A DNA stretch of 64,000 nucleotides from positions 1-64,000 of the forward strand of contig NZ_JAKZEW010000017.1 of NCBI RefSeq assembly GCF_022548875.1, read 5' to 3'. The translations under genes were made by a program, and so were the position numbers. Position 1 is the first letter of the stretch. The number at the start of each line of letters is the position of its first letter. Below the pieces are notes generated by a model that did not search any database, was not told where the DNA came from, and worked only from the letters and a program-made list of their open reading frames with translations. This DNA comes from Glycomyces sp. L485 (GTDB lineage Bacteria > Actinomycetota > Actinomycetes > Mycobacteriales > Micromonosporaceae). Positions 17,318 to 30,196 of the stretch are shown here, one piece after another.

Positions 17318-17497
17318 GTCACCGTGTTGCAGCAGGGTCTGGTCTGGTTCAGGATTCTGGCTGTGAACCGACGCCGGCGCGGAAACCGCATATGGCGACG
17401 GCGATCTTCGTAGGCTATGGCGGCGGGCATACGACGAAGCCGGAATGGCGGCCCGCCGATGGAACCGCCGAGAAGGATCAGACGGCTGGAGGCTGAC

Positions 17498-17887
17498 ATG
17501 GAGTATTGGACGGCGATTCGACTGCGGAAGCCGTTCGCCGACACGGTGGAACGGGTCCGTGAGGCGTTGCAGGAGCAGGGCTTCGGCGTACTCACCGAGA
17601 TCGACGTGCAGGCGACTCTGCGAGAGAAGCTCGGCGAGGAGACCGAGGACTACCTCATCCTCGGTGCTTGCAACCCTCCCCTGGCACATCAGGCGCTGGA
17701 AGTCGACCGGCGGATCGGGTTGCTGCTGCCCTGCAACGTCGTAGTCCGCCGGGACGAGGACGAGACCGTGGTCGAGGCGTTGGAGCCGCAGGTCATGGTC
17801 GACGTCACCGGCAAAGCGGACCTCGCTCCGGTCGCGGCCGAGGCGGGTCGGCGCCTGCGTGCCGCGCTTGAGGGCATGCGTTCCTGA
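17498..17887 (+). CDS. DUF302-family protein
   Basis: A 129-residue cytoplasmic protein of the DUF302 family, recognised from the pattern FADTVERVREALQEQGFGVLTEIDV, the GACNPPLAHQAL segment, GLLLPCNVVV and the C-terminal VAAEAGRRLRAALEG. CNPP and PCNV carry the conserved Cys residues. DUF302 proteins are small beta-rich folds often linked to metal or redox stress; the biochemical role is not established. GGAGG nine bases before the ATG supports this start over an in-frame ATG 81 bp upstream. Confidence 0.9.
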   Translation: MEYWTAIRLRKPFADTVERVREALQEQGFGVLTEIDVQATLREKLGEETEDYLILGACNPPLAHQALEVDRRIGLLLPCNVVVRRDEDETVVEALEPQVMVDVTGKADLAPVAAEAGRRLRAALEGMRS

Positions 17888-17997: not shown

Positions 17998-19059
17998 TCA
18001 CCGTTCCTGGTTCGCGGCTCGCTCGGAGAGAGCGCGGCGTAGCCTGGCGGCCGCGCGCTCGGGCGGCAGAGGATTGACCGCGATCCCCGTCCCGAGCTCG
18101 AATCCCGCGGCGATGACCAAGCGCGGCAGCAGGCTCAGATGCCACGAGAAATAGTCGGTGTGCTCCTCCCCGTTGGGGGCGCTCACGAGCACGAAGTTGT
18201 AGGAGAAGTCGCCGAGCAGGTCCCGCAGTGCGACCAGGAGGCCGCGCAGCAGGGCCGAGGCATCGGTGAGCACCTCGTCGGCCACGTCGGCGAAGGACGC
18301 CTGGTGGACACGTGGCACCAGCCGGGCCTCGAACGGGACCCGTGAGGCGTACGGGGCGAGCGCCACGACATGGTCGGCGACGGCGAGGACTCGGGCGCCT
18401 TCGGCGAGTTCGGCCGTGGTGACGTCGGCGTACAGGCAGCTTCCGTGGTCGTCGTAGTGGGCCCGGGCGATGTCGAACAGCTGCCGGTATCGCAGCGGCA
18501 CGATCGGGGTGGCGACTATCTGGGAGTGCGGATGCGACAGCGAGGTGCCGGCGGCCGCACCGTGGTTGCGAAACGGCAGCACCAGGCCCGGTCGAATCCC
18601 GCGGAGCGCGCGGGCGCGGGCGCGGTACGCACCGAGAACGGCCGCAACGGCCGCGTCGTCGGCATCGGCCAGGTCCAGGTCGTGGCGGGGAGTCTCGATG
18701 ACCACCTCGTGCGCGCCGACGCCGTCGGCGGAGACGAGGAGGCCATCGCGGTGGTGGAGGGCCGGCCGATCGGCGGCGGCGAGGACTGGGAACCGGTTGG
18801 GCACCACTCGCACCGTCCAACCGTCACCGTCGTCTGTGGGCAGCCGCCACAGCTCGGCCGGCGTCTGGTCCTCGTTGCCCGGGCAGAACGGGCATTTCGG
18901 GTCGAGGGTGACAGGTCGAGCGCCCCGGGCGGGTGTCGAATCGGGCACCGGATGCGGCCGGCGCTCGCGCTCCGGGGCGATCACCGCCCAGGCGCGTGTG
19001 AACGGGTCCTGACGCAGTTCGGCATTGTCCGGGCCTGTCCTCCCGGCGCGGGACGTCAC
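17998..19059 (-). CDS. galT: Galactose-1-phosphate uridylyltransferase (HIT superfamily)
   Basis: Leloir enzyme exchanging UDP-glucose and galactose-1-phosphate. Zinc-site Cys pair in CPFCPGNE; active-site segment [18 protein letters not shown] with the nucleophilic His in HPH. The C-terminal half also fits ([20 protein letters not shown]). At 353 residues it is normal. It starts at a GTG overlapping the stop of the upstream glycosyltransferase by 4 bp (GTGA), so the two are translationally coupled. No galK or galE is adjacent, so a specialised nucleotidyltransferase role remains possible. Confidence 0.88.
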
Positions 19060-20498
19060 GCGCCCGCCCGACTCGCCGTACGTAGGAACAGCTGGGGGTT
19101 CGCGGCGAATTCGCGGGCGCAGGATTTCGAGCAGAACCGGAACCGCTGCCCGTGGTACGCGTGCTGGAGCTCGGAGTCGGGACGGACCCGCATGCCGCAG
19201 ACGGGATCGCGATCCTCCCCGGACACACCCGCGGCCGCCAGCGCCTGAGGTGTCCCCGGGTGCCGCTCGAGCAGATCTGAGATCAGCCGCAGCTCGTCGC
19301 CGAGCAGGCGGGGCAGCAGGAACCGGTGCAGCACCCGCCTGCGGCCGGCGTCCGCGAGGCGGCGCCCGGCAGCGGGGTCGGCCAGCAGGTCCAGGACGCG
19401 CGCGGCGCATTCCTCGACCGAGTCGACCAGGTAGCCGCCCACGCCGTCGGCGAGCTGCAGCGGGATGCCGCCCGCGCGACCGGCCACGACCGGTGTGCCC
19501 TTCCAGGTGGCCTCGGACACCACCAGCCCGAACCCCTCACGCAGGGACTTCTGGATCGCCACATCGGCATGGCGCTGGAAGGCGTTGACCTCGATGTTTC
19601 CCACGCCGGTGAGGTTGGTGAACAGGTAGATGTCAGGGTCGTCGGCTGCGGCGTCGCTGATCTCGCGGTACACCTGCCAGCCCTCCGGGTCGTCGCGCGC
19701 CATCGCCCCGACCAGGGCCAGTTGCACGTCGGGCATCCGGCGCTTGACGATCCGGTACGCGGCGATCACGCCGAGCGGGTCCTTCCAGTGGTCGAAGCGG
19801 GACACCTGCAGCAGCAGGGGCCGCGCTACGTCCACCCCGATCCAATCGACGATGGAGACGGCCAGGTGCTCGTCGAGATCGATGTTCTTCGGGCTGAGCG
19901 GGTCGATCGCGGGCGGGATGATCTCCACCCGGCCGTGGGAAACGTCCGGCGGGGCGAACGATCCCAGGGTGTACACCGAGGCGTCATAGTCGTCCAGCAG
20001 CGGCATGAGTCGGGCCAGGACCTCCGGGTCGGGCGCCGAGCTGTCGATGTGGCAGCGCCAGATCCATCGCGCTTCTCCGCGGCCTCGCAGGTGCGGCAGC
20101 GCGAGGGGCTGCGGATCGTGGACGATGACGACGTCGTAGGGCTCTTCCATCTGGGCGGCGACGCGTGCGGAGGTCTGCTCGTATATCTCCCATTCGGCCT
20201 GGGTCACGCCGCGGGTGCCGCCTTGCAGTGCGTTGTGAATGGCCTTTGTCACCGCGAAGAACTCCTCGGTGCCGGTGATGGTCTTCCATCGGGCGACGAT
20301 TCCCAGATCGCGCATCAACGGCACTTCGGACCGCAGGATCTCTGCCACGCCACCGCCGTAGGAGGTGGCGTTCACGTGCAGGACCCGTGCGCCCGCCAGC
20401 GGTTCGGCCAGTTCGCGCAGGTCCTGCAGTACTTCGTCTCCTACGGTCGCGCGGTATGCGTCTAGTCTGTTGCGCCCGACGTCAACGTTCTGCAGCAT
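19056..20498 (-). CDS. TreT-like trehalose synthase (GT4) fused to a C-terminal YHS domain
   Basis: Residues 1 to about 410 are a GT-B glycosyltransferase of the TreT type: [48 protein letters not shown], and the GT4 motif [20 protein letters not shown]. TreT makes trehalose from NDP-glucose and glucose. Residues 431-480 form a YHS domain ([13 protein letters not shown], then [16 protein letters not shown]), normally a small metal-binding module of copper or heavy-metal proteins. The frame is continuous, so this is a true fusion. The start follows GGAG, and an upstream ATG would add 61 unlike residues. It is coupled to galT. Confidence 0.88.
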
Positions 20499-20865
20499 CC
20501 TCACCGTCTCCTTCGAGCGCGGTGGCAGGCGTTCGGCCCTCGCCGGCGAGCCCGCACCGTGGCGGTTCGAGGCGCGCCGGGACCGGCGTTTCGGCTGCGG
20601 GTCGTCCAGGTGGCGCGGGGTGCGTCCCATGCGATGGGCGAAGAGCGCCCGACCCCGGGCGAGTTCGGGGCAGACTGTCACGAGGGCATACCGCCCACCT
20701 GCTCATTCGGTCACCGTACCAGTCTCTCGCCGTCGGAGCCGGTGTTCGTTTGAGCGGTGCCCTGGCACGGATGCACCGAGCTGGTCGGTCTGGCGGACCG
20801 CCGCATCCTGCGACACCGTCGGCGGTGGACGAGCAGGCGGTGGAGATGGCGTAGCAGATTCAGAT
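20499..20865. other. Intergenic, no gene seen
   Basis: About 370 bp upstream of the TreT-like gene. Open frames here are Arg/Pro/Gly-rich on both strands with no start signal or family match. It should contain the promoter of the treT-galT pair; no clear -35/-10 pair stands out. Confidence 0.5.
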
Positions 20866-22518: not shown

Positions 22519-24480
22519 TCAGGAGGTTCGCACGATGACGGCGTCTCCCGCAGCGACGGGGATGTCGCCGGAGTAAGCGGTGCCGTCGAGGGCGTCGGCG
22601 CCTCGGATGCCGGGGACGGTCGTGTCCTGGTCGGTGTGGTTGATGAGGAAGCAGTAGTCGCCGCGGTGGACGATCTCGACGTGTTCGGGGACGCCGATCG
22701 GGCGCGGCACTCCAGCGTGGTCGAGGGCTTCGGAGAGCAGTGCCCGCAGCCCGGTGCTGTCGTCGAGGGCGGTGGCGGCGTACCAGGCGGTGCCGGCGCC
22801 GAGCCGGTGTCGAGTGAGGGCGGGGTGTCCGGCGTCGGGTCCGTCGGCGAAGGAGGTGAGCGCCTGGGCGCCTTCGAGTCGGACGCGTTCGGACCAGATC
22901 CGGCCCCTCGCACCGGAGTCGAGCGACGCCGCGTCGCCCTCGGCTAGCGGGTGGAACTCCTCGACCCACAGGCCGAGGGTCTCGCGCAGCGCACCGGGGT
23001 GGGCTCCGGGGTGGACGGTGTCGTGTTCGTCGACGATGCCGGAGAAGTAGGAGACGACCAGGTGCCCGCCGTCTTCGACGTAGCCGCGGAGGTTCTTGGC
23101 GGCGGCGTCGGTGAGCAGGTAGGAGGAAGGTGCGACGACGAGGCGGTAGCCGGACAGGTCGGCTTCGGGGTGGGCGAAGTCGACGGTGACGTGCTGCTTC
23201 CACAGCGCCTCGTAGTAGGCCTCGACCCTTTCGCGGTAGCCGAGATCGACCGAGGGCCGCCATTCGAGTTCGAGGGCCCACCACGACTCCCAGTCCCACA
23301 ACAGGGCCACCTCGGATGCGACCTCGGTGCCGGTGACGCCGGCCAGGCGCTGCAGGTCCGCGCCGAGGGCGACCACGTCGCGCCACACTTCGGTGTCGGT
23401 GCCGCCGTGAGGGAGCATCGCGGAGTGGAACTTCTCGGCGCCGGACCGGGAGGCCCGCCACTGGAAGAACATGAGGCCGTCCGCGCCGCGCGCGAGGTGG
23501 GCCAGGGAGTTGCGGCGCATCTCGCCGGAGGTCTTGGCGAGATTGCGACTCTGCCAGTTGACCGCCGAGGTGGAGTGCTCCATGACCATCCACGGGCCGC
23601 CGGCGACGCCGCGGACCAGGTCGGCGCTCATGGACAGTTCGATGTGGTTCTCGGGCCGCTCGGCGACGAGGTAGTGGTTGTTGGAGACGACGTCGACGAC
23701 GTCGGACCAGCGCCAGTAGTCCATGTCTTTGCAGTTGGGGACCATGAAGTTCGTGGTCGCCGGCGCGTTCGAGTAGCGGGCGACGATCTCGCGCTGGGCG
23801 CGGTAGTTGGCGATGTGCTCGTCGTTGGAGAACCGCTGCCAGTCGAGTTGCAGGGCCGGGTTGACGCCGGGCGGGGCGGCGCTGGGAGCCTCGATCTGAT
23901 CGAAGGAGCGGTAGACGATGCCCCAGAAGGCGGTGCCCCAGGCGTCGTTGAGCCGGTCGATATCCCCGTATCTGCTTTCGAGCCAACGGTGGAAGGCCTG
24001 CCTCGAGACCTCGCAGTAGCACGCGACACCGGCCCAGCCGTACTCGTTGTGAACGTGCCACAGCTCCACGGCCGAATGGTCGCCGTAGCGGGCGGCGAGT
24101 TGCTCGACGATGCTCGCGCAGGCCTCGCGGTAGACCGGCGAGGAGGGGCAGACGCCATGCCGGGTACCGCCCGCGAGGACGCGTCCGTCGAAGTCGACCA
24201 GGCGGATCTCGGGGTGCTCCCTGCGCAGCCACGCAGGAGGCGAGGCCGTCGGAGTGCCGAGGTCGACGCCGATGCCGTTCGCGCGCAGGAGCTCCATGAT
24301 CCGGTCGAGGCCGCTGAAGTCGTACTCGCCGCGGAGCGGTTCGATGATCCCCCAATTGAAGATCCCGAGGCTGACGAGGTTGACCCCCGCCTCCCGCATG
24401 AGCCGGACGTCTTCGTGCCAGACCTCCTCGGGCCACTGCTCGGGGTTGTAATCGCCTCCATAGCGAATCGTCTTCAACAC
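22519..24480 (-). CDS. GH42 beta-galactosidase
   Basis: Intracellular beta-galactosidase of 653 residues with no signal peptide. Acid/base Glu146 lies in HVHNEYGW and nucleophile Glu301 in MVMEHST. The N-terminus (IRYGGDYNPEQWPEEVW) and the C-terminal trimerisation and beta-sandwich domains (YCFLINHTDQD) are complete. The start is a GTG preceded by AGGAGA at 2-7 bp; the first residues VLKTIRYGG match the family. Divergent from the ABC importer with two LacI-type operators between them, it should hydrolyse imported galacto-oligosaccharides from GH53 action. Confidence 0.95.
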   Translation of the reverse strand: MLKTIRYGGDYNPEQWPEEVWHEDVRLMREAGVNLVSLGIFNWGIIEPLRGEYDFSGLDRIMELLRANGIGVDLGTPTASPPAWLRREHPEIRLVDFDGRVLAGGTRHGVCPSSPVYREACASIVEQLAARYGDHSAVELWHVHNEYGWAGVACYCEVSRQAFHRWLESRYGDIDRLNDAWGTAFWGIVYRSFDQIEAPSAAPPGVNPALQLDWQRFSNDEHIANYRAQREIVARYSNAPATTNFMVPNCKDMDYWRWSDVVDVVSNNHYLVAERPENHIELSMSADLVRGVAGGPWMVMEHSTSAVNWQSRNLAKTSGEMRRNSLAHLARGADGLMFFQWRASRSGAEKFHSAMLPHGGTDTEVWRDVVALGADLQRLAGVTGTEVASEVALLWDWESWWALELEWRPSVDLGYRERVEAYYEALWKQHVTVDFAHPEADLSGYRLVVAPSSYLLTDAAAKNLRGYVEDGGHLVVSYFSGIVDEHDTVHPGAHPGALRETLGLWVEEFHPLAEGDAASLDSGARGRIWSERVRLEGAQALTSFADGPDAGHPALTRHRLGAGTAWYAATALDDSTGLRALLSEALDHAGVPRPIGVPEHVEIVHRGDYCFLINHTDQDTTVPGIRGADALDGTAYSGDIPVAAGDAVIVRTS

Positions 24481-24580
24481 GGTCTCCTGTGAATTCCTCG
24501 CACCGACGCCTGTGAACGTGCACGCTACCCGGCCTGCCACAGGTTGGCAACCTGACGCCTCGCAGGTGTTGTTTCAGAAT

Positions 24581-24594
24581 TGTGATCGTTCTAT
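24581..24594. promoter_or_regulatory. LacI-type operator A (GH42/ABC intergenic)
   Basis: TGTGATCGTTCTAT, matching 11 of 14 positions of the motif TGTGAWCGWTCACA deduced from four copies in this locus. It is about 100 bp upstream of the GH42 start. Confidence 0.65.
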
Positions 24595-24639
24595 GGACCA
24601 TTATTGCGTAGATAGATCGCAAACAGGTGCATACTACCC

Positions 24640-24684
24640 TTGCTTTCAGTGACGCATATCGCTACGTTGATGTAATCGTTCACG
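24640..24684 (+). promoter_or_regulatory. Promoter and LacI-type operator B before the importer
   Basis: TTGCTT (24640-24645) and TACGTT (24663-24668) at 17-bp spacing form a weak promoter, followed at once by the operator TGTAATCGTTCACG (24671-24684). The arrangement repeats that at 31417-31468, where the operator also covers the start of transcription. Confidence 0.6.
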
Positions 24685-24737
24685 GTCTGCCGCTGGACCC
24701 CAGCGCCAGAATCCCTCAACTGAGACGAGGACTTGAT

Positions 24738-26048
24738 ATGCGAGGCAAAGGAGCTGTCGCCGCCGCGGCGGCGGCGGCGCTCGGACTGTCCGCCTGCGGC
24801 GGCCCCCCCGAAGAGGAGCAGGCCACCGAACTGGAATGGGACGCCGACGCCCAGCAGTACGTCATCGAAGAGGAGATCGCCTCCGGCGAAGTGCCACTGA
24901 AGGTGTGGATCGAAGAGGAACACCTCGCCGAGGCCGTCGTCACCTCCTTCAAAGAAGAGTTCAAAGAGGAATATCCCGACATCCAGGTCGAGTACGAGCT
25001 GGTCGTCAAGAACGACGCTGTCGAGAAGATGTCCCTGGCCGGCGAGGCCGGCAACGGCGCGGACGTCTACATGAGCTTCTACGACCAGGTCGCCCGCGCC
25101 ATAGACGACGGCACCGCGGCACCGCTCGGCGAATACGAGAACGTCCTCTCCGAGCGCATGAGCGGCACCTTCACCGACGTCGTCTCCGCCGACGACCAGA
25201 TGTACGCCGTGCCGGTCACCACCGAATCCATGGCCCTGATGTACAACACGACCCTCCTCGAGGAGCTCACCGGCTCCCCTGAGCCGGCCCAGACCTGGGA
25301 GGAGATCATCGACCTGGCCGGGGAGTACAACGACCCGGCCGCCAACCGGTGGACCATCCGCATGGTCACCAGCGAGATCTACCGCGCCTACCCGATCTTG
25401 TCCGCTGCCGGCTGGCAGGTCTACCCCGACGGCGATGTCGACGATCCCGGATTCGACGACCCGGAACTGGCGGCGGCGCTCGACTACTTCGCCGGCCTGC
25501 GCGAGATCTTCAACGTGCCCAGCGCCGACACCACGTGGGAGACCGTCGAGGAGGAGTTCGCCAAGGGCGAGACTCCCTACGTCATCACCGGCCCCTGGAG
25601 CTTCTCCACCTTCGACGAGGGCGCCGAGGCAAACGGCTTCGAGTACGGCGTGACGACCTTGCCGACCGCGAACGGCGGCGAGCCCGCGGGGGCCTTCGCC
25701 GGCATGCACGTCGCCGTGGTCTCGGGCTATTCGGAGTACCCGGCCGCCGCGCGAGTCTTCGCCAACTTCCTGGCCAGCGACACCGGCGCCGCCACCATCT
25801 ACGAGCAGACCGGCCAGATCCCGGCTATCACCGCCGATCTGCTGTCGGGGGTCGAGGGCATCGCCGATGACCCGAACGTGGCCGGCATCGTCGCACAGTC
25901 GGCCCAGGCGGACCTGATCCCGCAGGTGCCCCAGTACTTCTGGGAGACCGGCAATGTCCTGACGGTGGACGTGTGGAACGACCTGTCCGACACCGCCGCC
26001 GCCCAGGAGAAGGCCGTGGCCACCTACAACGAACTGCACGGACTCTAG
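24738..26048 (+). CDS. ABC sugar-binding lipoprotein (MalE/GanS-like)
   Basis: A 436-residue extracytoplasmic solute-binding protein of family 1. Signal peptide with an unusual poly-Ala core and lipobox GLSAC (Cys at about residue 19), then an acidic N-terminal extension before the binding fold (VPLKVWIEEEHLAEAV). The family signature GPWSFSTFDEG and GYSEYPAAARVFANFL are clear. ATG with GACGAGGA upstream is preferred over an in-frame ATG 111 bp earlier. First gene of the importer operon; galacto-oligosaccharides are the probable ligand. Confidence 0.93.
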   Translation: MRGKGAVAAAAAAALGLSACGGPPEEEQATELEWDADAQQYVIEEEIASGEVPLKVWIEEEHLAEAVVTSFKEEFKEEYPDIQVEYELVVKNDAVEKMSLAGEAGNGADVYMSFYDQVARAIDDGTAAPLGEYENVLSERMSGTFTDVVSADDQMYAVPVTTESMALMYNTTLLEELTGSPEPAQTWEEIIDLAGEYNDPAANRWTIRMVTSEIYRAYPILSAAGWQVYPDGDVDDPGFDDPELAAALDYFAGLREIFNVPSADTTWETVEEEFAKGETPYVITGPWSFSTFDEGAEANGFEYGVTTLPTANGGEPAGAFAGMHVAVVSGYSEYPAAARVFANFLASDTGAATIYEQTGQIPAITADLLSGVEGIADDPNVAGIVAQSAQADLIPQVPQYFWETGNVLTVDVWNDLSDTAAAQEKAVATYNELHGL

Positions 26049-26060
26049 GAACCGGTCACC

Positions 26061-27491
26061 GTGAGTACCACCGAATCCGCTACGACCTCCGAGTCCCCCA
26101 CCCCGGCCGGGGGCCGCGCGCAGCGCGGCCCCGGCCGTGCGGGCCTCCCCTCGTGGGTGCCGGGCGCCGCTTCGGCGCTGGTGTGGGGGGCCGGCCAGCT
26201 GATCAACCGTCAAGTCGGCAAGGCCGCTTTCTTCTTCGGGTTCTTCGCCGGCGCCATCGTCACGGAGATCGCCACCGGCAACTACTACTCCGGGATGGAG
26301 TTCAGCCCGCGCGGCAACGGAGGGTTCTTCGCCAAAGGCCTGTGGGGCCTGGTCACGCTCGGCACGCAGCCGCGCGAGATGACCCTCACCGGTCTGACAG
26401 AGGGCGACAACTCGATCGTCCTCATGGCCAACGGCCTGATCGCGATCCTGACCATGGCGCTGCTCGCGATCCTGTGGATCTGGGGCGTCCGCGACGCCGT
26501 CCGCTACCGCCGGACTCTGAACGCCGGTGGCGACCGCGTGACCTCGAGGGACTATTTCCAACGGCTGTGGGATGGCGCTTTCGCCTATATCGCGCTGTCG
26601 CCTGGCCTGGTGCTCATCGTGTTCATGTCGGTGCTGCCGGTCCTGTTCGGCATCCTGGTCGCCTTCACCGACTACAACCGCGACAACCTGCCCCCGAAGA
26701 ACCTCGTCAGTTGGGTCGGCTTCGACAACTTCGCCACCGTCTTCTCGGTTCCCTCCTGGGCCGGGACATTCCTCGGAGTCCTCACCTGGACCTTCGTGTG
26801 GGCCGTGCTCGCCACAGCCATGACCTACATCGCGGGGATGCTCCAGGCAGTCCTCCTGGCGAACAAGAAGGTCAGATTCCCGCGCGTGTGGCGCTCGATC
26901 TTCCTGCTGCCCTGGGCAGTGCCCGGGATCGTCTCGGCCCTGGTGTTCCGGTCGATGTTCAACGGCCAGTTCGGGCCCATCAGCCAGTTTCTGGTCGACA
27001 TCGGCCTGACCGACGAGCGGATCTACTGGTTCACCGACCCCTCCAGCCCCAATCTGGCTCGCGGCGTCGCACTCCTGGTGAACCTGTGGCTCGGGTTCCC
27101 GTTCTTCATGGCTCTGGTCGGCGGTGTGCTCGCCAACATCCCCGACAGCTACTACGAGGCCGCCCGCATCGACGGCGCAGGCCCGCTCCAGCAGTTCCGG
27201 TACATCACGTTTCCGGTCGTCCAGCGAGTGGTCTCACCGCTGCTGATCCTGGCGTTCGTGAGCAACTTCAACAACTTCGGCCTGATCTACTTCCTCACCG
27301 AAGGCGGCCCCGACAACGTCGACTACCGGTTCGCCGGCAGCACCGACCTCCTGGTCACCTGGTTGTTCAAGCTCACCCTCGACAACCGGCTCTACAACAT
27401 CGGAGCGGTGATGAGCCTGATCGTCTTCTTCATCGTCGGCACCATCTCGGTGTGGAACCTCAACCGGTCCAAAGCGATCCGGGAGCTGTGA
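26061..27491 (+). CDS. ABC sugar permease, MalF/GanP type
   Basis: A 476-residue inner-membrane permease. An extra N-terminal region with membrane segments (WGAGQLINRQVGKAAFFFGF and a further helix near residue 140) precedes the core of six helices, as in MalF/GanP. The EAA loop for the ATPase is EAARIDGAGPLQQF. It starts at GTG, 12 bp after the binding protein, with a Ser/Thr-rich leader. No ATPase gene is near; actinomycetes usually supply a shared MsiK-type ATPase. Confidence 0.93.
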   Translation: MSTTESATTSESPTPAGGRAQRGPGRAGLPSWVPGAASALVWGAGQLINRQVGKAAFFFGFFAGAIVTEIATGNYYSGMEFSPRGNGGFFAKGLWGLVTLGTQPREMTLTGLTEGDNSIVLMANGLIAILTMALLAILWIWGVRDAVRYRRTLNAGGDRVTSRDYFQRLWDGAFAYIALSPGLVLIVFMSVLPVLFGILVAFTDYNRDNLPPKNLVSWVGFDNFATVFSVPSWAGTFLGVLTWTFVWAVLATAMTYIAGMLQAVLLANKKVRFPRVWRSIFLLPWAVPGIVSALVFRSMFNGQFGPISQFLVDIGLTDERIYWFTDPSSPNLARGVALLVNLWLGFPFFMALVGGVLANIPDSYYEAARIDGAGPLQQFRYITFPVVQRVVSPLLILAFVSNFNNFGLIYFLTEGGPDNVDYRFAGSTDLLVTWLFKLTLDNRLYNIGAVMSLIVFFIVGTISVWNLNRSKAIREL

Positions 27492-27494
27492 AAC

Positions 27495-28406
27495 ATGACT
27501 GCCACCACAAGGAATGAGCCGGGGCCACCGGCGACGCGCCAGAAGCGACCTCGCCGAGGAGACGCCGAAGGCCGTCAGCGGCTGCGCGACGGCACCGCCG
27601 GCCTGTTCATCCACATCGAACTCGCGATCGTCGCGTTCATCGTCGTCTTCCCACTGCTGTGGGTCGTCGGCTCCTCCCTCGGGCCCGGCGGCGGCCTGGC
27701 CAACGCCACCCCGATCCCCGAGAACGCGAGCCTCGACAACTACGTCCACCTGTTCACCCAGACGGACTACGGACGCTGGTACCTCAACTCCCTGTACGTC
27801 GCCACCCTCAACATGGTCGGCAGCGTCATCCTGTCGGCTCTGTGCGGGTACGTGTTCGCGCGTATCCGCTTCCGCGGCCGCAAGGTCAGCATGCTGGGAA
27901 TCCTCATCCTCCAGATGTTCCCCAGCTTCCTGACCGCCATCGCGGTCTACATGCTGTTCCTCAATTTCGGGCTGCTGGACTCCCTGACGGGGCTGGCGCT
28001 GGTGAGCATCGCCGCGGCGCTGCCGTACAACACCTGGCTGATGAAGGGCTACACCGACAACCTGCCCGCGAGTCTGGACGAGGCCGCCGCGATCGACGGC
28101 GCCGGTCGGATCACGATCTTCCGCAAGATCGTCCTGCCGCTCATGCGCCCGATGCTCACCTTCGTGGCGATCACCCAGTTCACGATCCCGTGGATGGACT
28201 TCATCCTGCCTCGTCTGCTGCTGCAGAGCCAGGACAAGCAGACCGTGGCACTGGGCCTGTTCCAGCTGATCACGAACCAGTACCTGAACGACTTCACCAC
28301 ATTCGCCGCCGGTGCGGTGGTCCTCGCGGTGCCGATCACGATCCTCTACATCGTCCTGCAACGCCACCTGGTCACCGGTGCCATGGCGGGCGCGGAGAAG
28401 GGATGA
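27495..28406 (+). CDS. ABC sugar permease, MalG/GanQ type
   Basis: A 303-residue permease with six transmembrane helices; EAA loop EAAAIDGAGRITIFRKI. N-terminal cytoplasmic tail is Arg-rich. It follows the MalF-type gene with a 3-bp gap and its stop overlaps the start of a 45-codon frame (ATGA). With the two upstream genes it makes a complete importer except for the ATPase. Confidence 0.94.
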   Translation: MTATTRNEPGPPATRQKRPRRGDAEGRQRLRDGTAGLFIHIELAIVAFIVVFPLLWVVGSSLGPGGGLANATPIPENASLDNYVHLFTQTDYGRWYLNSLYVATLNMVGSVILSALCGYVFARIRFRGRKVSMLGILILQMFPSFLTAIAVYMLFLNFGLLDSLTGLALVSIAAALPYNTWLMKGYTDNLPASLDEAAAIDGAGRITIFRKIVLPLMRPMLTFVAITQFTIPWMDFILPRLLLQSQDKQTVALGLFQLITNQYLNDFTTFAAGAVVLAVPITILYIVLQRHLVTGAMAGAEKG

Positions 28407-28540
28407 GCATGTACCGGGGAGCGGGTGCGGCCATGACCGCCGAGGTCGAGTCCCTCGGCGAAAGTCCCTGGGCTGGACAGGCCCTCTTCGATCTCGACGG
28501 CAGAGGCCTGTCGTCGTCGCAGGCGCTCGGCGGCGCCTGA
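28403..28540 (+). CDS. 45-residue mini-protein resembling a GH53 C-terminus
   Basis: The start overlaps the MalG stop by 4 bp. The segment ESPWAGQALFDLDGRGLSS matches the end of GH53 catalytic domains: the galactanase just downstream reads ESNSWDNQTLFDHSGNKLS there, with about ten of seventeen aligned residues identical. No catalytic part is present. The best reading is a remnant left by deletion of a second GH53 gene, kept in frame with the permease; a functional mini-protein is less likely. Confidence 0.5.
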   Translation: MSMYRGAGAAMTAEVESLGESPWAGQALFDLDGRGLSSSQALGGA

Positions 28541-28564
28541 CCCTCGATCGCAAAGGAGCGACTA

Positions 28565-30196
28565 ATGAGACGACTATTCGCGGTGGCCCTCACGGCCACC
28601 ATGTGCTTCACCGCCTTCGCCACGGCCTCCCCGGCCCAGGCCGTGCGGAGCGACTTCTACATGGGCGTCGACGTCGGCACGCTCGCCGAGGTCGAGGCGT
28701 CCGGGGAACGCTTCTACGACGACGGCGTGCAGGGCGACGCACTGCAGATCATGGCCGACAGCGGTTCCAACCTGGTGCGGCTGCGACTGTGGAACGACCC
28801 GTACAGCTCATCGGGCCAGCCCTACGGCGGCGGCACGAACGACCTGGCGAAGACGATCGAGATGGCGCAGCGCGCCAAGGCCCTCGGCATGGACGTCCTC
28901 CTCGACCTCCACTACTCGGACTTCTGGGCCGACCCGGGCAAGCAGTTCAAACCCAAGGCGTGGCGAAACCAGTCCTACGGCCAGCTCGTCGACTCGGTGC
29001 GGAACTACACCCGCGACGTCGTCTCCCAGATGAACGCCGCGGGCGCCAAGCCCGACATCGTCCAGGTGGGCAACGAGATCACCAACGGCATGCTCTGGCC
29101 CGAGGGCCGCACCTCCAACTGGTCGCAGCTCGGAGGCCTGCTCAAGGCCGGGATCGAGGGCGTCCACCAGGGCGCGAGCGGCATCGAGATCGCACTGCAC
29201 CTCGACCGCGGCGGCAACAACGGCGCGTACCGCAACTGGTTCGACAACGCCCACGCGCAGGGCGTCCCGTACGACATCATCGCCATGTCGTACTACCCGT
29301 ACTGGCACGGCACGATGAACCAGTTGCGGAACAACATGAACGACGTGGCCTCGCGCTACGGCAAGGACGTCCTCGTCGTCGAGACCGCGTACGCCTGGAC
29401 CCTCGCGGACGGCGACGGCCGCGGCAACATCTTCACCAGCGACCACGCCGAGAGGTCGGGCTACCCGGCGACGGTGGCGGGCCAGACGCAGTTCCTGCGC
29501 GACCTGCAGGACGCCATCGCCGACGTGCCGAACGACCGCGGCCGCGGCCTGGTCTGGTGGGAGGCGGCGTGGACCGGCGACACCACCTGGGCCACGTCGG
29601 CCGGGATGTCGTACATCGACGACCACGCCGGCGAGAGCAACTCATGGGACAACCAGACCCTGTTCGACCACAGCGGGAACAAGCTGTCGACGCTGGACGT
29701 CTTCGGCGAGGTGACCGGCGGTGGTCCCGGAGATCCCGGAGATCCCGGAGAGAATGTGCTGACCAACGGCGGCTTCGAGTCGGGCAGCGGCAGGTCGGCG
29801 TCCGGCTGGAGCGTGTGGGCGCAGGACAGCGCCGACACCGACGCGGCCTTCCGGGAGTCGCGCGGGAGCATCCACCAGGGAAGCCACAAGTTCACGCACT
29901 GGAAGGGCTCCGCGTACGTCGTGTCCGCCTACCAGTCGCTGAGCGTCCCGAACGGGACCTACACGCTCACGGCCCAGGTCATGAACGGCGGCGGCCAGAA
30001 CGCCGCGTACATGTACGCCAAGCGGCACGGCGGCGGTGAGCACCGGGCGGACCTCCCGGTGACCTCGCAGTGGACGCAGGTGTCCGTCTCGGGCATCCAG
30101 GTCACGAACGGGCAGATCGAGGTCGGGTTCTACTCGGACGCGAATGCCGGAAACTGGATCAACGTCGACACCGTGAGCCTGTCTCGCACCGGGTGA
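28565..30196 (+). CDS. Secreted GH53 endo-beta-1,4-galactanase with CBM61-like module
   Basis: Cuts the beta-1,4-galactan side chains of pectin outside the cell. Signal peptide to about residue 26 (ending SPAQA), catalytic GH53 domain about 30-375 with acid/base Glu171 (VQVGNEITNG) and nucleophile Glu273 (VVETAYAW), a GDP-repeat linker (GGGPGDPGDPGEN), and a C-terminal beta-sandwich of about 145 residues (VLTNGGFESGS through NVDTVSLSRTG) resembling CBM61, the galactan-binding module seen with GH53. AAAGGAG before the ATG supports the start. Located in the importer operon. Confidence 0.94.
   Translation: MRRLFAVALTATMCFTAFATASPAQAVRSDFYMGVDVGTLAEVEASGERFYDDGVQGDALQIMADSGSNLVRLRLWNDPYSSSGQPYGGGTNDLAKTIEMAQRAKALGMDVLLDLHYSDFWADPGKQFKPKAWRNQSYGQLVDSVRNYTRDVVSQMNAAGAKPDIVQVGNEITNGMLWPEGRTSNWSQLGGLLKAGIEGVHQGASGIEIALHLDRGGNNGAYRNWFDNAHAQGVPYDIIAMSYYPYWHGTMNQLRNNMNDVASRYGKDVLVVETAYAWTLADGDGRGNIFTSDHAERSGYPATVAGQTQFLRDLQDAIADVPNDRGRGLVWWEAAWTGDTTWATSAGMSYIDDHAGESNSWDNQTLFDHSGNKLSTLDVFGEVTGGGPGDPGDPGENVLTNGGFESGSGRSASGWSVWAQDSADTDAAFRESRGSIHQGSHKFTHWKGSAYVVSAYQSLSVPNGTYTLTAQVMNGGGQNAAYMYAKRHGGGEHRADLPVTSQWTQVSVSGIQVTNGQIEVGFYSDANAGNWINVDTVSLSRTG

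Follow-up and report, generated by a model that had tools for sequence, protein, structure and literature searches.

The protein encoded at positions 19056–20498 of the window (the whole 64,000-nucleotide stretch that was analysed) joins a TreT-type GT4 core to a C-terminal YHS domain, and its gene overlaps a GalT-like gene downstream. The two products are tentatively interpreted, with appreciable doubt, as a pair of trehalose/glucose-1-phosphate enzymes that respond to metal, probably to copper. The features discussed below are as follows.

19056..20498, minus strand: TreT-YHS fusion gene (480 aa), TreT-type GT4 core with C-terminal YHS domain
19266..20498, minus strand: TreT core, residues 1–411, from Pfam, solved relatives and alignment
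19209..19265, minus strand: linker, residues 412–430, with residues 415–427 at pLDDT <50 in the model
19083..19208, minus strand: YHS domain, residues 431–472, from Pfam, with Asp-x-Val-Cys and two further Cys
17998..19059, minus strand: GalT-like gene (HIT superfamily), its GTG start overlaps the stop of TreT, and At5g18200 is the nearest solved sequence
17417..17887, plus strand: DUF302 gene, convergent neighbour, candidate member only

Gene organization and identity of the TreT core

The reading frame runs uninterrupted on the minus strand from ATG at 20498 to TGA at 19056, whereas the plus strand of the same interval is interrupted by stops on translation. The ATG is preferred over the GTG at 20681 of the ORF list because it is preceded, 9 bases upstream, by AAGGAG. 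The original prediction that TreT and YHS are joined in one continuous frame is borne out by this 480-residue minus-strand ORF, which has Pfam matches to both parts (the prediction itself named no strand), and the cysteines that it placed at CGM and CSKSC are present as DPVCGM and FCSKSC. An assembly artefact is excluded as the source of the fusion, since the fusion recurs in genomes of other species. The AlphaFold model has a mean pLDDT of 81.7 and a pTM of 0.82, and the poorly predicted linker makes the YHS domain look like a tethered module.

On sequence grounds the core is assigned to the TreT family and fold. Pfam matches to TreT_GT1 (PF21269; residues 41–182, 6e-51, 172.3 bits against a cut-off of 27) and Glycos_transf_1 (residues 226–387, 1.3e-20, 74.1 bits against 26.4) cover most of it, and residues E321 and E329, invariant across 12 aligned homologues, match the Glu-x7-Glu arrangement that we take to be the motif of retaining GT4 enzymes. 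The top solved sequence relatives are the TreT proteins of Thermoproteus uzoniensis (6zj4) and Pyrococcus horikoshii (2x6q), which are ∼40% identical in the core and share its fold (TM-scores by target of 0.92 and 0.88, respectively), but unlike TreT-YHS the solved chains stop after the core and carry no YHS tail. The score of 386.7 bits with NCBIfam NF041139 (Thermococcales TreT) is under the cut-off of 775 of this model, which describes a narrow archaeal group.

The YHS tail and its copper precedent

The Pfam match to YHS (PF04945) spans residues 431–472 with an E-value of 1.3e-11 and 44.7 bits against a cut-off of 30.3, and a score above the cut-off rules out a chance match; a PDB search with the YHS segment alone returned weak matches, the best at E 0.11. 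One Asp and three Cys (Asp-x-Val-Cys and two later Cys) are kept in all 21 TreT-YHS sequences. In comparisons with three Glycomyces copies, dN is 0.22–0.24 and dS 0.58–0.83 for the YHS segment, dN is 0.12–0.13 and dS 0.63–0.74 for the core, and dN is 0.32–0.39 for the linker. With dN of the tail below its dS and above dN of the core, the tail is constrained, but less so than the core. At E 1e-5 or better the source genome has one YHS domain; it also has one OtsA-family gene.

The closest functional precedent is an adenylyl cyclase of Mycobacterium phlei, whose activity is switched on by copper at 1–10 µM through a C-terminal YHS domain, whereas further transition metals tested in combination with magnesium elicited none (PMC4626032). 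One Asp and three Cys are proposed there as the copper ligands, and EDTA added after copper abolished activity, so that binding rather than oxidation is favoured (PMC4626032). The cyclase resembles TreT-YHS in being a cytosolic enzyme with a C-terminal YHS domain, a short linker and the Asp and three Cys, and differs in its unrelated catalytic domain and in linker length (8 residues as against ∼19); its copper response is demonstrated (PMC4626032), whereas that of TreT-YHS is predicted. P1B-type metal ATPases with a terminal YHS share the same Pfam domain and the DPVCGM/FC/C pattern, and at some loci they adjoin TreT-YHS, but they are membrane pumps rather than sugar enzymes. YHS is also found C-terminally, in a genome that encodes TreT-YHS, on an XdhC-like protein (L238, 419–1384) and on an ABC ATPase (L252, 796–1644).

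Distribution and history of the fusion

The architecture, which the original prediction had proposed to look for elsewhere, was found at 21 of 75 chosen and examined TreT loci, in Actinomycetota, Myxococcota and one Acidobacteriota metagenome-assembled genome (MAG). The 54 loci lacking YHS are a hand-chosen, non-random set (27 from the Actinomycetota search, 17 from Myxococcota, 6 from Acidobacteriota, and L036, L038, L310 and L311). Left out of the counts were L031 and L033 (near-copies of L030), L037 (a 3 kb contig), L039 (37% identical) and the plasmid record H3; the near-copies L029/L077 and L123/L124 were retained.

In the genome searches a fusion was scored where the TreT match ran through query residue 471 or beyond. 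Among the matches listed, such cases occur in at least 8 of 396 Actinomycetota genomes, source genome included; they were found in 4 of 193 Myxococcota and 1 of 199 Acidobacteriota genomes and in none of 294 other Streptomyces genomes drawn. In a separate search TreT-YHS appeared at three Glycomyces loci and at five loci filed under four species names of Streptomyces, and three Streptomyces plasmid records carry the gene. No close copy was found among 100 other genomes of the source family, 5 of the same genus included, where the next-best match (9.7e-59) ends before YHS. The distribution is patchy, as for a mobile gene.

In a tree of 73 TreT loci all 21 with YHS fall inside one group of 41 rows with support of 93/76, which is below the star of the tool, and the next larger group, of 43 rows, is starred with support of 98/88. 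The YHS label changes 4 times on this tree, compared with a mean of 18.4 after shuffling. The simplest history is one gain of YHS followed by about three losses, other orders being possible, and loss in some members of the 41-row group indicates that the tail is dispensable. Restriction of the fusion to one species is ruled out by the tree.

Genomic neighbourhoods

Pump linkage was defined as a P1B-type pump of at least 200 bits no more than 9 kb away or inside the flank that was fetched, flanks being shorter than 9 kb at many loci. By this measure a pump is nearby at 11 of 21 loci with YHS and 4 of 54 without (p = 5e-5, with no correction for kinship). Within the 41-row group the figures are 11/21 and 4/20 (p = 0.05, marginal), and outside it 0/34; all of these figures are weakened by shared descent and near-copies. 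Any stress-type gene is nearby at 17 of 21 loci with YHS, 4 of the 20 without it in the group and 1 of 34 outside, a count that leans toward loci with YHS because the neighbour panel was drawn from them.

Many TreT-YHS genes and YHS-bearing phosphorylase genes (see below) sit in mobile islands of metal and stress genes. At L032, in Streptomyces anulatus, TreT-YHS comes immediately after a P1B pump gene, itself YHS-bearing, and a CsoR-family gene. The TreT-YHS stretches of plasmids pI (S. mirabilis) and pFRL3 (Streptomyces sp. FR1) contain heavy-metal ATPases, FtsH and universal stress proteins, that of pFRL3 also HtpX, PspA and mercury(II) reductase. Elsewhere the neighbours of TreT-YHS are, at L116 and L117, acetate kinase and phosphoketolase; at L120, a universal stress protein and a PEP-synthase-like enzyme; at L118, a cupredoxin; and at L035 (the Acidobacteriota MAG), a P-type ATPase with a CPC motif and a GAPDH-like enzyme. 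The pump signal at L026 is a hemerythrin-bearing P-type ATPase rather than a classical copper pump, and the match at L028 is similar to it. In Glycomyces, P-type ATPases with a C-terminal hemerythrin domain (L026, 9895–12195; L027, 9031–11463) lie a few kb from TreT-YHS.

No metal pump lies within the window, and none of the five E1-E2 ATPase matches of the source genome is on the contig of the window. The DUF302 gene is the one neighbour common to the window and an island, a similar gene being present in the S. mirabilis island. Islands of this kind were not found in the open-licence PMC literature searched.

YHS domains on alpha-glucan phosphorylases

A second sugar enzyme carries YHS, at its N-terminus. 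At L035 (the Acidobacteriota MAG) the gene after the pump encodes an alpha-glucan phosphorylase whose N-terminal YHS scores over the Pfam cut-off. In 6 of 193 Myxococcota genomes the phosphorylase match starts at residue 1–5, inside YHS, and Anaeromyxobacter is a seventh case. Its YHS-phosphorylase frame (Anaeromyxobacter oryzisoli; L243, 1489–2382, and L296, which hold the same gene) breaks partway in the assembly, which may be real or an assembly error. On cyanobacterial plasmids the fusion occurs on at least 5 records of four genera (among the best 20 of 546 records), and in the four plasmids examined it stands among heavy-metal or cation-transporting ATPases, with multicopper oxidase, four-helix copper proteins and phytochelatin synthase also represented.

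When eight phosphorylases were scanned with the YHS Pfam model, L286, L290, L294 and L243 (the gene of L296) scored over the cut-off, L292 and L293 scored below it, and L291 and L295, in which only the Cys pattern of YHS remains, were unmatched; six of the eight had been entered from match residue 1–5, with the first YHS residues trimmed. L287, L288 and L289 were scored for YHS by motif only. Both YHS enzymes occur in one genome in Anaeromyxobacter, in the Acidobacteriota MAG and in G933, where the YHS of the phosphorylase is under the cut-off.

A pump is nearby at 5 of 12 phosphorylases with YHS versus 3 of 11 without, and at 0 of the 7 YHS-phosphorylases of Myxococcota. Phosphorylases lacking YHS also lie near metal pumps, on plasmids of Roseomonas, Pseudorhizobium and Ancylobacter, so sugar enzymes occur in such islands with or without the tag. 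Together with the pump-free window, the hemerythrin-bearing ATPase at L026 and the marginal p value within the 41-row group, these untagged phosphorylases led us to reject pump adjacency as proof of metal sensing. Plasmids of Indioceanicola and Meiothermus (L303, 3944–4174; L308, 11750–11926) encode stand-alone YHS proteins a few kb from a YHS-less alpha-glucan phosphorylase and a type II GAPDH.

Role of the YHS tail

The arrangement shared with the copper-switched cyclase makes metal gating by analogy the leading idea for TreT-YHS, and a cyclase with the same kind of tail that is switched on by copper gives the principle a precedent (PMC4626032). The original prediction had suggested metal or redox control of trehalose synthesis and considered it new. 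The first part is strengthened by the ligands kept in 21/21 sequences, by YHS on a second alpha-glucan enzyme, by the metal and stress islands and by the cyclase (PMC4626032); the claim to novelty does not stand, since YHS tails are already present on adenylyl cyclases, XdhC and an ABC ATPase. YHS-tailed enzymes are therefore known, and it is the use of YHS on TreT and on alpha-glucan phosphorylase that was not found in the open-licence PMC papers searched.

Alternatively, the tail may bind metal without gating catalysis; on an otherwise ordinary enzyme of stress trehalose it could provide a structural zinc site, buffer metal or act as a docking tag. We regard this as a serious possibility, if a doubtful one. 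The predicted disorder of the linker, the faster evolution of YHS than of the core, the absence of YHS, apparently through loss, from 20 of the group's 41 rows, and its presence on P1B pumps, XdhC and an ABC ATPase, where gating of an enzyme is not obvious, would all fit a tail of this kind. However, the sole tested YHS enzyme found in print is copper-regulated (PMC4626032), and YHS occurs on two enzymes of one sugar route.

Identity of the GalT-like partner

The translational coupling to a GalT-like gene that was originally described corresponds to a GTGA overlap of the TreT stop (TGA, 19058–19056) with the GalT-like start (GTG, 19059–19057). A GalT-like gene is near 11 of 21 TreT loci with YHS, the window included, versus 1 of 54 without, namely L038 (Aerophobota), where it is convergent. 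Metal islands of Streptomyces have the pair too, as do two further, more distant TreT-YHS loci. On S. mirabilis plasmid pI a GalT-like stretch after TreT-YHS (L076, NZ_CP074103.1, 94666–95619) is absent from the PLSDB gene table.

Among solved sequences the GalT-like protein is closest to Arabidopsis At5g18200 (1z84, 2.6e-55), followed by 6k5z (2.2e-35), E. coli GalT (3.3e-30) and human GalT (3.6e-18), and the CxxC pair and His-x-His-Ser-Gln stretch align with At5g18200. At5g18200 phosphorolyses ADP-glucose (PMC11066809), and its PDB entry 2h39 is titled ADP-Glucose Phosphorylase; it differs in being a plant protein without a known link to trehalose. The second GalT of the source genome, which adjoins GalE on another contig and is 31% identical to the GalT-like protein, gives the opposite order (6k5z, 3.9e-42; E. 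coli, 8.3e-30; human, 1.3e-29; At5g18200, 1.2e-19). We infer from these similarities that the partner may be an NDP-glucose phosphorylase. The suggestion that it makes a non-glucose nucleotide sugar becomes less likely given At5g18200 as nearest relative and a separate galT-galE pair, but it keeps some ground in the galT_1 score and the adjoining galactan-type cluster described next.

The partner could instead be a true Leloir GalT for galactan use that adjoins TreT-YHS by history or shared expression only, which we consider unlikely. Its score with NCBIfam TIGR00209 (galT_1) of 114.5 bits passes the cut-off of 102.1, its model, of low confidence (pLDDT 60.2), fits At5g18200 and canonical GalTs with similar scores (Z 20.1–21.8) and does not tell the two kinds apart, and genes for a GH42 enzyme, a solute-binding protein, two permeases and a GH53 enzyme lie a few kb away at 22519–30196. 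That interval, with its GH42 beta-galactosidase and two ABC permeases, looks like a galactan-use cluster, and together with the galT_1 score it means that the partner may have a galactose role. Against a Leloir function, another GalT stands next to GalE in the genome and is nearer to canonical GalTs, At5g18200 ranks first over E. coli GalT by 25 orders of magnitude in E-value, and the pair recurs at the other TreT-YHS loci noted above.

Proposed mechanism and implications

That the tail is a redox (thiol) switch instead of a metal switch is very improbable. The three conserved Cys in a small domain, and the mercury(II) reductase and universal stress proteins of some neighbourhoods, speak for it; against it stand a conserved Asp that fits a metal site and the loss of cyclase activity with EDTA after copper, which favours binding over oxidation (PMC4626032).

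For the metal-responsive enzyme pair, TreT-YHS would catalyse trehalose + NDP ↔ NDP-glucose + glucose and carry YHS on a flexible linker. The YHS domain would bind a soft transition metal, copper being the likeliest, and the bound metal would alter TreT activity, by analogy with the M. phlei cyclase. The GalT-like partner would catalyse NDP-glucose + Pi ↔ glucose-1-phosphate + NDP, so that the two enzymes could interconvert trehalose and glucose + glucose-1-phosphate with no nucleoside triphosphate spent, allowing the cell to produce or recycle trehalose when metal or another stress is present.

A broader proposal, which we think improbable as a whole, is a copper-gated switch of sugar reserves in which YHS was gained separately by phosphorylase (N-terminal) and TreT (C-terminal), and rising metal would drive glycogen → glucose-1-phosphate → NDP-glucose (by way of an NDP-glucose phosphorylase) → trehalose without NTP. 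If it is true, mobile islands would couple metal efflux to the production of a sugar that protects proteins at times of ATP shortage.

The signals usually associated with trehalose synthesis are osmotic, thermal or carbon-related. With TreT-YHS the YHS domain, which has been little tested, becomes available on a soluble enzyme whose tail-less natural relatives can serve as controls. A metal-sensing domain in TreT that is shared with a glycogen-breaking enzyme and often carried on mobile metal and stress islands would connect the toxicity of metals directly with carbon reserves.
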